NCBI RefSeq assembly: GCF_004025325.1
Contig: NZ_RSFE01000004.1
Coordinates: forward strand, 1-64,000
Source: Pseudidiomarina gelatinasegens
GTDB lineage: Bacteria > Pseudomonadota > Gammaproteobacteria > Enterobacterales > Alteromonadaceae
Direction of reading: 5' to 3'
Length of the DNA stretch: 64,000 nucleotides
Shown: positions 24,734-57,299 of the stretch, piece by piece
How the letters are laid out: each line of letters opens with the position of its first letter
Numbering within the stretch: the stretch's first letter is position 1
Notes under the pieces: model-generated
What the model saw: the letters and a program-made list of their open reading frames with translations, nothing else
Databases searched by the model: none
Told to the model about the DNA's origin: nothing
Position numbers and translations under genes: made by a program

Positions 24734-25624
<891 letters not shown>

Positions 25625-25627
25625 CTA

Positions 25628-25655
25628 TTGACGAATTAAATTGATCTGCTATGTT
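25628..25655 (+). promoter_or_regulatory. candidate sigma-70 promoter of the pilA leader
   Basis: TTGACG (25628-25633) and TATGTT (25650-25655) with a 16-bp spacer begin four bases after the nadC stop. Initiation near 25662 would give a leader of about 370 bases containing the riboswitch. No good -24/-12 (sigma-54) site was found. Confidence 0.5.
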
Positions 25656-25723
25656 TTAGAGGCAATGCGCAACTAAAAGCCCCCACTGTCGAATGAAAAG
25701 ACAGGAATGGTGGTTCTTAGGTG

Positions 25724-25847
25724 CCAGGCATGCTTTAAAAGGCAAAGCTACTGAGAGGTAGTGACGCAAAACCTCCGGTCCAACTGGTATGGGCGGCTTT
25801 ATAGCCAACCAAATTAGCGGATAGCGGGGCTGCAGGCTAAAGTCTGG
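25724..25847 (+). promoter_or_regulatory. cyclic-di-GMP-I (GEMM) riboswitch aptamer in the pilA leader
   Basis: The stretch reproduces the GEMM-I core in order. First comes AGGCAAA (25740-25746), then a hairpin closed by a GAGA tetraloop (CTACT/GGTAG, about 25748-25761), then GACGCAAA (25762-25769), the CCTCCGG segment, and the 3' element TAGCGGGG (25822-25829). The outer P1 stem is also present: CCAG (25724-25727) with CTGG (25844-25847), and CTTTA (25733-25737) with TAAAG (25838-25842). Aligned to the V. cholerae Vc2 aptamer, position 20 is G and position 47 is A. That fits recognition of cyclic-di-GMP rather than the cAMP-GMP variants that carry A20. Part of pairing region P3 was not resolved by eye. 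Confidence 0.85.
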
Positions 25848-25883
25848 TGGATGAAGTAGCTTTCCGATGTTATGTCGATAAAG

Positions 25884-25938
25884 CAAAAACCACTTGTTCT
25901 TTCGGCTGATGCAGATGACTTGTTGTGGTTGTTTTTTG
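25884..25938 (+). terminator. candidate expression-platform terminator of the riboswitch
   Basis: AACCAC (25888-25893) can pair with GTGGTT (25925-25930), followed by GTTTTTTG (25931-25938). It lies 40 bases after the aptamer and 90 bases before pilA, where a transcription-control platform is expected. A second hairpin, CATCCA/TGGATG (25943-25970), follows. The stem is short for a strong terminator, and whether ligand binding turns pilA on or off cannot be read by eye. Confidence 0.5.
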
Positions 25939-26029
25939 TGACCATCCAAGTGCTGATGTGCATCTGGATGCTACTTAGACAGACACAACAACAACTAATA
26001 AGTTCGAAATTACTTTCGGGAGATATTTC

Positions 26030-26551
26030 ATGAAAGCGCAAGTACAAAAAGGTTTTACCTTAATCGAATTGATGATCGTTGTTGCGATCATTGGTATCTT
26101 GGCAGCTGTAGCAATTCCAATGTACAGCGACTACACCCAACGTGCTAAAGCTTCTACTGGTTTAGCTGCATTGGCTAACTACAAAACTACTGTAGCTATG
26201 TGCTATCAGACTTACGGTGCGTTAACGAACTGTAATGCAACGACTGGTGATACTACAGTGACAAACGCTGACGGTACATCTTCAACAGTACCAGGTACGC
26301 CGACGCCAATTCCACCAGCAATCACCGACGCTGACAATGTCAACGGTGTAACATCTGCAGATGTTCAAGGTGGTCTGATAACGGCCACTTTAAAAGCAGT
26401 TGATGTTGATGGAAACCCAATCCAGGTAAGCATCCAACCTACTGCTTCAACGGGTGGTGGTGTTCTAACATGGACTATCGGATGCTCAGATTTTAGCAAA
26501 GGCTCTCGAGTTGATGGTTGTTCAGCTGCTACTCAGGCTCCTGCAGCTTAA
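26030..26551 (+). CDS. pilA: type IV major pilin
   Basis: This is the structural subunit of type IVa pili. The short basic leader MKAQVQKG is cleaved by PilD before Phe9 in the signature [24 protein letters not shown]. Glu13 (mature Glu5) is present for assembly. The protein is 173 residues. The mature domain has an early Cys pair (MCYQTY and TNCNA) and a second pair near the C terminus (TIGCSDF and DGCSA), the latter suiting the D-region disulfide loop. A Thr/Pro-rich insert ([12 protein letters not shown], about 82-95) is a likely variable or glycosylated surface region. GGGAG lies about 13 bases before the ATG. It is preceded by the riboswitch leader and followed by a strong hairpin before pilB. 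Confidence 0.93.
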
Positions 26552-26591
26552 TTAACGTAGTCTATTGTTGATTCGTTGACTGAACTTGTAT

Positions 26592-26624
26592 GAGGCCTCA
26601 AACATGAATTGTGTTTGAGGCCTC
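26592..26624 (+). terminator. hairpin between pilA and pilB
   Basis: GAGGCCTCAAAC (26592-26603) and GTTTGAGGCCTC (26613-26624) form a perfect 12-bp stem with a 9-base loop. The T-run is poor (CTGATTATG). It is therefore probably a partial terminator or mRNA 3'-end stabiliser, which would give much more pilA than pilB message. Confidence 0.65.
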
Positions 26625-26652
26625 TGATTATGCGTATTCTTAGGTAGAAACC

Positions 26653-28350
26653 ATGCTGCACCACTCCCTCGCGGCTTTGCTGCTGCGTGACAAACTCATT
26701 CCTGAAGATAAGCTCACCCGTTGCAGTGAGTATGCTTGGGAAAATAAGCTTCCTTTTAGTGCCTGCTTAATTGAGCAAAAGCTTATTTCGCCAAGCGAAC
26801 TTGCCAACTTTTGTTACCTCGAGTCCAACGCGCCCTGGCTTGATCTCGACGCTTTTAACGCCGATTACATACCTCAAGAATTCATCAACGAACGTTTAAT
26901 TCGTAAGAACCACGCGATTCCGCTCTACCTGCGCGGCAATGTACTTTATGTGGCTGTTTCTGATCCAACTCGGATTGAAACGCTCGATGAATTCCAGTTC
27001 CGTACACGTATGCAAACGGAAGCGGTGCTCGTTGAAGAAAGCAAACTGCAAAAACTGATTGATACGGTGCTGGAAAACGACTCTTCGGCGCTGGGTGTTA
27101 CAGCCGAAGATGAACAAGAACTTCGCGATATCGATGCCACGGATGAGCGCCAGGATGACACCGGTGCGGTATCAGCAGACGTAAAAAATGACGCGCCCAT
27201 TGTTATTTACATCAACAAGATGTTGTTGGATGCCATTAAACGCGGTGCCTCGGATTTGCACTTCGAACCCTATGAGCAGGAATATCGGGTGCGCTTTCGT
27301 ATCGATGGCGTGTTGCATGAAATTGCCAAACCACCTGTGCAGCTAGCAGGCCGCATCGCAGCGCGGTTAAAAGTTATGTCGCAGCTTGATATTGCCGAGC
27401 GCCGACTGCCCCAAGATGGACGTATAAAACTTAAACTTTCCAAACATAAAGCCATAGATTTCCGGGTTAGCTCATTGCCGACTTTGTACGGCGAGAAAAT
27501 TGTATTGCGGATACTTGATGCCGCAGCTGCCATGATCGGTATCGAATCACTCGGTTATGAACCTGATCAGCAAAAGCTTTATGAAGAAGCACTAGAAAAG
27601 CCGCAGGGCATGATTCTGGTTACCGGCCCAACGGGTTCAGGTAAAACCGTATCACTGTATACAGGCCTCAATATTCTTAATACCCCCGAACGCAATATTT
27701 CTACCGCCGAAGACCCTGTAGAAATTAACTTAATGGGGATTAACCAGGTTCAGATTAACGTCAAAGCCGGTTTGGGTTTTGCCGATGCGCTGCGCTCGTT
27801 TTTGCGGCAAGACCCTGACGTGGTCATGGTGGGTGAGGTACGTGACTTAGAAACAGCAGAAATTGCGATTAAAGCGGCGCAAACGGGTCACTTGGTGCTA
27901 TCTACGTTGCACACAAACTCAGCCGCTGAAACACTGACTCGTCTCATGAACATGGGCGTGCCGGCGTATAATATTGCGGGCTCAGTGACACTGATTATTG
28001 CGCAGCGACTGGCGCGACGCCTCTGCGGCCATTGCAAGGAAGAAGAAAAACTGCCAAAAGAAGAGATGCTGCGCCAGGGTTTTAGTGAAGAACAGATAAA
28101 AACTGCCACTGTTTATAAAGCAGTAGGTTGCGATCAGTGCACGAACGGTTATAAAGGTCGTACAGGTGTATACGAGGTAATGCCGATTACACCCAACATC
28201 GCAGACCTTATAATGACCGGTTCATCGTCGTTGGATATTGCCAAACAAGCACGCAAAGATGGTATTAATTCTTTGCGCGAGTCGGCATTACTTAAGGTTG
28301 CCAAGGGCACCATTAGCTTGATTGAAGCGAACCGCGTGACCAACTTCTAA
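26653..28350 (+). CDS. pilB: type IV pilus extension ATPase
   Basis: This is the hexameric cytoplasmic motor that polymerises PilA. The 565-residue protein has an N-terminal MshEN-like domain (about 1-140) followed by the N2 and ATPase domains. Walker A is GPTGSGKT at 325-332. The Asp box (EDPVE) and the Walker B segment [16 protein letters not shown] follow, and the His box reads STLHTNSA. A tetracysteine zinc motif (CGHC then CDQC, about 457-500) is typical of PilB. In the N-terminal domain the RLG signature used by c-di-GMP-binding MshE proteins is replaced (HSLAALL), so direct ligand binding looks unlikely. pilC follows after 54 bp. Confidence 0.96.
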
Positions 28351-54688: not shown

Positions 54689-56935
54689 ATGAAGCAGATA
54701 GATGTTGTGAGTTTTCCAGATAAGTTCGGTAAGCAGTCCGAACGCTGGCGCTTATTGCGCTACCTTGTTGTCGTGCTCTTCATCGCGTCGGCTTTGCTGT
54801 ATGCGGTTTACCTTGTGGTTGACGGTGAACGCCAGCAGCAACTCGAGGTTGAAAAGCGGCGTGCCGGGGAACATTTAAGCGCAATGCGCGGCCAGATTGA
54901 GCAACGTCTACAAGCTAATATGCTTGCGCTTAGAGCTTTGCGCCCAGAAATTCTTTGGCAAGACAACCCCGACCGAGTGCGCTTACAGCACATCATGGAT
55001 GAATTCCTTTCGTCCAATCTTGACATCATGCATGTTGCGCTTGCTCCTGAACTTGAAGTTAAATTTGTTTACCCCGTTGAAGGCAACCAGTCGATGATTG
55101 GGTTCAACTACCGCCTTGATACCGAGCAATATGCCGGCATATTACGTGCTATTTCCGTTAAAGACGTGGTGCTTACGGGCCCCTTGCGTCTTACGCAGGG
55201 GCGCGAAGCGTTAATTGCGCGCATGCCAGTGTTTCGAAACGATCGTACGCTGTGGGGCATCGCTTCTTTAGTTATCGACCACGTGCATCTATTAGATGGC
55301 GTGCGCTTCTATCAGCATCCAAACTACTCGTTTGCAATTCGCCATGCGGTGACCGAGTCTGAGACAACCGCTGTACCATTTGCTGGCGAAAATGATGTGT
55401 TTCAGCAAGATGCTTTGGTTACGGAGATTACCTTCCCGCGTGGGCGTTGGGAACTTGCAGCTTATCCGCGAGACGGCCGCTGGGTTGCCACCAACGCCGA
55501 CTTCTGGTTGCACTGGGCTATTGGTATTGGCTTAACGGCGGTTATTTTATCTGCCTTCTTAATGCTGATATTTACCCAGCATCGTCTGCGCGGTGCAATT
55601 TCCACCATTGCTTATCAAGCACGCTATGACGGGCTGACCGATTTACCAAATCGTAATTTCTTCTCTGAGCAACTTGGCGCTGATATTCGCTCTGCATTAC
55701 GCAATCAACAAAAGTTTGCGTTGTTGGTTCTTGATCTTGACCATTTGCGCGAAATCAATGACGTGCTCGGCCATGAAGTTGGCGATGCACTGCTACAGCG
55801 CGTAGCTGAGCGGATTCGTACCAGTATTCGTGAAGATGACTTACTCGCTCGTATTGGCGGTGATGAATTTGCGATTGTGTTGCGTGACCTGAATGATCCA
55901 AGTGAAGCGGAAATTCGCGCGAAAGCCATTATGAATGATCTGTTGCATACGCTGGATATTGAACACAACCATATTAATATGACCGCCAGTACCGGCATCG
56001 CAATGTTCCCGCATGACGGTCAAGAAGTTCAGCAGCTACTGAAGCACGCAGAATTAGCAATGTATGCCGCTAAAACTCAAGGTGCTATGAGTGTGCATTT
56101 CTTTGATGAGCAATTGCGTCAAAGTACCGAACGGGATATCAATCTGCACCATCAGATTATCAAAGGCATTGAAGCCGAACAGTTTGAAGTGCATTACCAA
56201 CCTGTTATTGAAACGGAAACCGGTTTACTGACGCGTTGTGAAGCACTGCTGCGCTGGACACATCCTGAGCGCGGCGCTATTTCGCCAGCCGAGTTTATTC
56301 CGATTGCGGAAAAAACTGGCGCAATCATAGGGTTGGGTGATTTTGTGCTGCGCCAAGTTGTGCGCGATTGGAAGAAAATGAACGCAGCTGGGCTTGATTT
56401 GTCCATCGCGCTTAACCGTTCACCGCGAGAGTTTAACGATCGCCAAGCCGCAACCCACTGGTTAAACGTAATCGCCGCTGCCGATGTGCCGCCGAATCGC
56501 CTGATGTTTGAAATTACCGAGTCGATGCTGATGCGCAATAAAGAACGCCAATTTGCGAATTTGCGCAAGCTGCGTGATGCGGGCATTACACTTGCCATAG
56601 ATGACTTCGGTACCGGCTATTCGAGCTTGAACTACCTGCGCTCATACCCAATTGATGTGATTAAAATTGACCGCAGCTTCTTGCATAACGTACCGCATCA
56701 GGGTCAACAAAAAGCTTTGGTTGAAGTGCTGATTCGTATCGCCCACACCTTGAATATGAAAGTGGTTGCGGAAGGTGTTGAACATGAGCAGCAAGTTGAA
56801 TTTCTGCAGCAACAACACTGTCACTTCCAGCAAGGATTCTTCTACGGCCGAGCAATGCCACTCAATGAATTTATTCGATTCACGCAGCAATTTAATCGCA
56901 ACGTGATGGATAACAATGGTATCCAGGGTGAAGTG

Positions 56936-56953
<18 letters not shown>
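54689..56953 (+). CDS. membrane GGDEF-EAL cyclic-di-GMP enzyme with periplasmic sensor
   Basis: This 754-residue protein makes and/or degrades c-di-GMP. A membrane helix (about 23-45) and a second (about 272-298) flank a periplasmic sensor region with a CHASE-like feel. The GGDEF domain (about 310-470) has an intact active site (RIGGDEFAIVL, motif at 390-394). The EAL domain (about 495-745) has EALLRW at 518, NRSPREF, EITESML, DDFGTGYSSL, KIDRSF and VVAEGVE, so the metal and substrate residues look complete. Both activities are therefore possible. A TATAAT (54658-54663) lies 25 bp upstream and the ribosome binding site is weak. The last 18 bp overlap the 3' end of the convergent rnpB. Confidence 0.92.

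Positions 56954-57299
<346 letters not shown>

Follow-up and report, generated by a model that had tools for sequence, protein, structure and literature searches.

A probable c-di-GMP-I riboswitch before the pilin gene pilA of Pseudidiomarina and its candidate platform for translational control

In this study, we found that the leader of the type IV pilin gene pilA of Pseudidiomarina gelatinasegens carries a c-di-GMP-I (GEMM-I) aptamer, and that this leader element is very probably a riboswitch for c-di-GMP. The analysis covered a stretch of 64,000 nucleotides, called the window here, together with the genome that contains it and the genomes of relatives. The riboswitch assignment is well supported by the covariance model, the contact bases of the ligand, the occurrence in 21 of 26 genomes of the genus, the 31 GGDEF matches in the window's genome and the absence of the aptamer where GGDEF matches are few. 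Read from its letters, the leader is an aptamer with two alternative pairings and a complement of the Shine-Dalgarno region. From this arrangement we infer that the leader switches, that it acts on translation and that it may turn pilA off.

The pilA leader and its aptamer

The gap between nadC (24758-25624) and pilA (26030-26551) measures 405 bp, close to the 400 bp or so given by the sequence-only reading that preceded this work, and pilA is followed by pilB, pilC and pilD. The features of the gap that concern the promoter, the aptamer and the gene are as follows.

25628-25655, + strand: sigma-70-type promoter, TTGACG (25628-25633), 16 nt, TATGTT (25650-25655); from a pattern scan and leader conservation
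25680-25713, + strand: 5' leader hairpin, CCACUGUC / GACAG..GGUGG, between promoter and aptamer; from the sequence
25723-25729, + strand: 5' strand of the outer P1, GCCAGGC, pairing with 25842-25848
25731-25837, + strand: c-di-GMP-I (GEMM-I) aptamer, RF01051
25747-25762, + strand: P2 hairpin with a GAGA (GNRA) tetraloop; double changes across 20 leaders
25772-25829, + strand: P3, CCTCCGGTCC (25772-25781) with GGATAGCGGGG (25819-25829), variable loop, without a UCUAAG-type receptor
25842-25848, + strand: 3' strand of the outer P1, GUCUGGU; from the alignment of leaders
26016-26023, + strand: Shine-Dalgarno region of pilA, UCGGGAGA; from the sequence
26030-26551, + strand: pilA, encoding a type IV pilin of 173 aa; Pfam families N_methyl, at 37.7 bits and over its cut-off, and Pilin, at 21.8 bits and slightly short of its cut-off of 22

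A GEMM-I aptamer before pilA had been proposed from the letters alone, with a covariance search with the Rfam model RF01051 as the way to check it. This search gave a significant match of 54.1 bits against a gathering score of 35, with an E-value of 8.7e-8 over the 64-kb window and 7.9e-10 over the genome, and it was the sole match in the 2.47 Mb genome. The proposed sequence blocks were recovered as well, namely AGGCAAA, the GAGA-capped P2, GACGCAAA and TAGCGGGG, together with the complementary P1 stem formed by GCCAGGC (25723-25729) and GTCTGGT (25842-25848).

Papers are cited here for those parts of their text that were accessible. The bases G20, A47 and C92 are c-di-GMP contacts of Vc2 (PMC4744006), and by alignment they correspond to 25742, 25769 and 25833. 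All three are kept in the window, with G at 25742 and A at 25769 as the sequence-only reading had it. Among the aptamers linked to pilA, G20 and A47 were found in 21 of 21 and C92 in 20 of 21; the exception, L039 of genome G001, has a T at C92 and is otherwise intact and pilA-linked. In GEMM-Ib aptamers, which bind cAMP-GMP, A replaces G20, and the change G20A is associated with cGAMP binding in the accessible text of PMC6274999. All 21 aptamers have G at this position. On the basis of G20, c-di-GMP would be preferred over cAMP-GMP, and the leader RNA is expected to bind its ligand.

The family RF03167 (c-di-GMP-I-GGC) belongs to the same clan and gave a comparable match (48.3 bits, with a better E-value in permissive searches). 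In a permissive search with clan competition by E-value it was kept over RF01051, while RF01051 is reported at gathering thresholds. We rejected RF03167 as the family of this aptamer, since its score lies below the cut-off of 59 and the G of the model consensus in GACGCGAA is replaced by A in the window; the aptamer L016 lies above that cut-off, at 61.5. Within RF01051, the score of the window aptamer ranks 43rd among the 49 matches compared.

The helices P1, P2 and P3 of the class and a GNRA loop on P2 were all found, P1 being without covariation. The full P1 consists of GCCAGGC/GUCUGGU and GCUU/AGGC. Its outer part is paired in 139 of 140 cells across 20 leaders and shows no double change; as it hardly varies, it is conserved without proof from covariation. 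Five of the six pairs of P2 showed double changes in the same leaders. Covariation across relatives, named beforehand as a check on the helices, was thus seen in P2 and was not seen in P1. The GNRA loop differs from GAAA in 20 of the 21 pilA-type aptamers, and GAAA together with UCUAAG was observed only in L014, which branches deepest within the genus in the NadC tree. The letters GGUCC stand in 20 of the 21 (GGUGC in L039), and L014 and many others have GGUCUAAG there. UCUAAG is likewise missing from four other compared loci with GUGA loops. This departure in tetraloop and receptor may lie behind the modest RF01051 scores.

The sigma-70 promoter proposed upstream of the aptamer was found again as TTGACG-16-TATGTT. 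The pattern scan alone is at chance level and weak as lone evidence (one site found, 1.6 expected). Of the 21 leaders of the genus, 20 have TATGTT and 19 the complete hexamer pair, and both hexamers also occur in the aptamer-less genome G025. Between promoter and aptamer, other leaders seem to have different hairpins from that of the window, as judged by eye and uncounted.

Apart from the leader, the interval between pilA and pilB contains a perfect inverted repeat, GAGGCCTCAAACA/TGTTTGAGGCCTC, at 26592-26624, without a T-run. PilB (26653-28350) has an MshEN domain at residues 60-139 (Pfam, 61.7 bits); in other proteins, this type of domain binds c-di-GMP. A bacterial RNase P RNA of class A (324.9 bits) lies on the - strand at 56935-57296.

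Distribution in the genus and the c-di-GMP network

Of 26 genomes of the genus, 21 have a match to RF01051, and among the 23 more complete ones 20 do. All 21 carriers have one aptamer 167-200 nt before the pilin start, and the remaining 3 of the 24 matches in the genus are second elements elsewhere. A pattern search with a 20-base core returned 18 loci, consisting of 15 from Pseudidiomarina and one each from Idiomarina loihiensis, a gammaproteobacterial MAG and Turicimonas. The Turicimonas locus (L069) was discarded as a chance hit, with no aptamer in the stretch read.

In the family sample, the aptamer was present in 184 of 295 genomes. The pilin motif GFTLIELM was found within 700 nt at none of 28 other aptamer loci examined, and no pilin was among the reading frames listed at 7 further loci of the family. 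To the extent that downstream genes were viewed, which was for part of the 184 carriers, the link to pilA is specific to the genus. Where pilA follows nadC in four other genera of the family (G026, G027, G030 and G031), the core GACGCAAA did not occur in the 700 nt after nadC, and in G119, G247, G227 and G281 no pilin motif was found within 1.5 kb after nadC.

Aptamers of this class were also seen before other genes. At L013, L017, L089, L090 and L091, from this genus and genus g35, the aptamer is followed by a small secreted protein and then a chaperone-like frame; we presume that these genes are perhaps for spore-coat-U-type fimbriae. At L012 (G049), an aptamer lies 74 nt upstream of the gene for a secreted protein that contains HGYISKPESRGYLC and resembles a chitin-active oxygenase (compare Vc1 and gbpA). 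At L041, L043, L045, L046, L048 and L049, from other genera of the family, aptamers lie 59-97 nt before small secreted proteins of 114-119 aa, some of which are followed by a frame that is presumably patatin-like.

No match was found in G010, G016, G022, G024 and G025 of the genus. The pilA leaders of G010, G016 and G022 are short. In G025 the aptamer and the platform are gone, and the leader keeps both promoter hexamers and GCCAGGC, followed by three bases and GUCUG. The sequence of G024 ends inside pilB, and four genomes thus count as seen to lack the aptamer. In a NadC tree of 32 rows, the aptamer label needs four changes and fits one gain and three losses; the well supported branches require only two changes, with several forks left open.

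GGDEF matches number 31 in the window's genome. The protein in the window that had been read as GGDEF-EAL was confirmed as a GGDEF protein of 754 aa at 54689-56953; its EAL label was given by eye. The carriers have 25-43 GGDEF matches in the 20 genomes that are at least 90% complete and 14 in G001, which is 77% complete. Without the aptamer the counts are 16 in G010, 16 in G022, 11 in G025 and 0 in G016 (86% complete), and G024 has 16. The aptamer-less genomes are also smaller (1.9-2.2 Mb), so the relation between GGDEF matches and the aptamer is a correlation. G016, which lost the aptamer and has no GGDEF match, is a relative of G001, the genome of L039.

These counts bear on the possibility of a different ligand, or of a decaying RNA without a regulatory role. 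The low rank of the window score, the loss of the usual tetraloop and receptor, the T at C92 in L039 and the preference for RF03167 by E-value in the permissive search would fit such a possibility. It is nevertheless highly improbable, as the contact bases are kept in 20 of 21 aptamers, P2 covaries, the RF03167 match falls short of its own cut-off, the genome is rich in GGDEF matches and the aptamer is missing where these are few.

The downstream platform and possible modes of control

From the 3' end of the aptamer, a strongly conserved block of 85 nt extends from 25830 to 25914. The features of this region, which we call the platform, and of its surroundings are listed below.

25830-25842, + strand: switch strand CUGCAGGCUAAAG, either the 3' side of aptamer and P1 or the 5' strand of anti-P1; C92 is 25833
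25854-25867, + strand: AAGUAGC (25854-25860), which would form the 5' side of a long-range helix HB and overlaps CUUUCCGA (25860-25867); double changes, duplex energy -8.0
25888-25938, + strand: hairpin and T6 (25932-25937) of the sequence-only reading; no terminator-like site, T6 not conserved
25899-25914, + strand: CUUUCGGCUGAUGCAG, 3' strand of anti-P1 and candidate anti-Shine-Dalgarno; from anti-P1 pairing and the Shine-Dalgarno complement
25970-25976, + strand: GCUACUU, 3' strand of HB; partly paired otherwise in the window's three minimum-energy folds

Two strands can pair with the 3' end of the aptamer, GCCAGGC upstream (P1) and CUUUCGGCUGAUGCAG downstream (anti-P1). P1 and anti-P1 share letters, so they cannot fully coexist, and their exclusivity is probably the switch, as judged from the conserved letters. 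Anti-P1 was read from the letters and from single-sequence folds and was counted afterwards. Its 13 pairs are paired in 99.1% of 234 cells (18 distinct rows), with two unpaired cells, both at one pair, against 26-48% in slid registers. Six pairs are invariant, six show one-sided compatible changes and one shows a double change (C-G to U-A, in L036), which was matched by 33 of 500 shuffles and is a weak, suggestive pass. A further double change, GUGG/CCAC to GUGA/UCAC, was noted by eye in L027. Anti-P1 was missing from both RNAalifold structures, that of the downstream region, whose energy was only -9.6 kcal/mol, and that of aptamer and platform together, in which P1 was drawn. Ensembles constrained to P1 or to anti-P1 were at most 4 kcal/mol apart in 18 of 20 leaders. 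Because the platform of L014 does not align with those of the other leaders, this leader is absent from the 20-row alignments and from the pair counts, and it enters the 21-row counts; it has a hairpin at the same place, built from other letters. A helix UUGUUGU/ACAACAA, which appears in the window's folds, is not claimed, since with such simple letters pairing is possible in many registers.

When 20 leaders were scanned for conserved helices, the longest were two of eight pairs. One of them is UCUUUCGG/UCGGGAGA, which involves the Shine-Dalgarno region and is 97% paired; the other uses promoter letters and is probably untranscribed. The Shine-Dalgarno pairing showed no double change in 18 distinct leaders and did not beat shuffles. 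When the span from the aptamer 3' end to the Shine-Dalgarno region was searched for complements in 21 leaders, the 3' strand of anti-P1 ranked first in 14 and fell short of the best by no more than 0.1 kcal/mol in another 6. CUUUCCGA (25860-25867) is a second complement, better by 0.1 in six leaders including the window, and in L016, which has CUUUCAG for CUUUCGG, the equivalent stretch is far better (-10.8 vs -5.5). In L014 its own, different Shine-Dalgarno is best complemented within the 3' arm of its hairpin. At most 5% of strand shuffles did as well in 10 of 21 leaders, the values being 7% for the window and 16% for L014.

Taken together, these pairings suggest the following mechanism. In the absence of c-di-GMP, CUGCAGGCUAAAG would pair with CUUUCGGCUGAUGCAG 56 nt downstream, and anti-P1 would hold the CUUUCGGCUGAUGCAG strand off the ribosome site of pilA, so that PilA would be made. 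With c-di-GMP, P1 would close the aptamer and block anti-P1. The freed CUUUCGG strand, or the nearby CUUUCCGA, could then pair with the Shine-Dalgarno letters CGGGAGA, and translation of PilA would be lowered. In constrained folds of 20 leaders, opening the ribosome site required on average only 0.88 kcal/mol more when P1 was enforced than when anti-P1 was, and the cost was higher under P1 in 13 of 20, including all six of the window's clade. The order was reversed in 7 of 20, four of them by more than 0.5. The Shine-Dalgarno complement is thus present and hidden in anti-P1, and the folding energies are mixed, so we consider the chance that the leader is a translational OFF switch to be about even.

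The opposite direction, an ON switch in which P1 displaces anti-P1, HB forms and the ACAACAA stretch and the Shine-Dalgarno region open, appears somewhat unlikely. HB is compatible with P1 and crosses anti-P1, which leaves room for such a switch; it is paired in 92.9% of cells with 12 double-change cells, and on three of five measures none of 500 shuffles reached as high. It fails the other two (254 and 488 of 500 as high), which are those described as less misled by relatedness, and it does not appear in the window's three minimum-energy folds. HB also crosses the Shine-Dalgarno pairing, which counts against the OFF model. The seven leaders with the site more open in P1 agree with ON control, as do the C. 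difficile pilA1 and Geobacter pilM switches, both ON in the accessible texts of PMC6366702 and PMC9262584. Against it, the Shine-Dalgarno complement sits in the very strand that anti-P1 hides, and the mean opening energy points the opposite way.

The sequence-only reading had taken the hairpin and T-run at 25888-25938 as the expression platform, and this part of it did not hold. Transcription attenuation at this place is very unlikely, even though T6 follows the complementary letters ACCAC/GUGGU and a run of five T stands at roughly these columns in L033. A scan of 25600-26700 found no terminator-like site (0.8 expected), and hence no intrinsic terminator 3' of the aptamer as in a transcription-terminating riboswitch. 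Among the other 19 aligned leaders, the T-run is five long in L033 alone, four in 3 and one or two in 15. The three folds of the window leader agree in pairing most of the letters between 25920 and the middle of the T-run with 25977-25991. Other Rfam families met in the platform in permissive searches were dismissed, namely mir-231 (E 1.6), mir-153 (E 2.6) and MIAT (E 1.7), all on the - strand and far below cut-off.

The lack of an intrinsic terminator, the long and conserved leader and the modest direct effect on the ribosome site could also be reconciled with a platform that exposes or hides a site for Rho or an RNase. Such control is unlikely, given the conserved Shine-Dalgarno complement.

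Comparison with known systems

A c-di-GMP-I riboswitch before a pilin gene belongs to an ordinary class, and no description of its conserved platform was found in the literature searched. In this search, which drew mainly on literature open without subscription, none of the papers listed dealt with a c-di-GMP riboswitch before the pilA gene of Idiomarina or Pseudidiomarina. The element may already stand in the member lists of Rfam. Idiomarina and a c-di-GMP riboswitch are both named in the accessible part of PMC12530212.

If the riboswitch assignment is true, the pilin of a marine genus is coupled to c-di-GMP at the RNA level. The 21 homologous leaders and about three natural losses provide material for study, and the system allows a direct test of gammaproteobacterial c-di-GMP-I switching without a terminator. 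Tentatively, and with rather less confidence than in the single parts, we suggest a genus-wide, undescribed platform composed of the aptamer's 3' strand, a conserved strand repeating the CUUUCGG that stands immediately before the Shine-Dalgarno region, and HB, possibly as a pseudoknot with anti-P1. Through it, pilin translation would fall as c-di-GMP rises, the reverse of C. difficile, and it would be lost when the c-di-GMP network shrinks.

Vc2, from the tfoY leader of Vibrio cholerae, is of the same class as the window aptamer and shares the contact bases G20, A47 and C92 (PMC4744006). The window leader differs from it in the gene controlled, in the GAGA loop without the UCUAAG receptor and in its own conserved platform. 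According to the accessible text of PMC9262584, Vc2 is a translational OFF switch dependent on P1, at odds with PMC4744006, which in 2016 called its mechanism unknown. As far as the accessible text of PMC6366702 goes, c-di-GMP switches may be ON or OFF, and neither of the V. cholerae class I switches uses termination. The Geobacter metallireducens pilM switch resembles the window in its GEMM-I fold before pilus genes and in the competition between aptamer and downstream strand, but its ligand is cGAMP and it is an ON switch with an intrinsic terminator (PMC9262584, in part). Cdi-2-4 of Clostridioides difficile pilA1 likewise senses c-di-GMP in the leader of a major pilin, but it has a class II fold and acts by transcription termination as an ON switch (PMC6366702, in part). 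The OFF model for the Pseudidiomarina leader therefore predicts a sign opposite to that of the C. difficile pilin switch.
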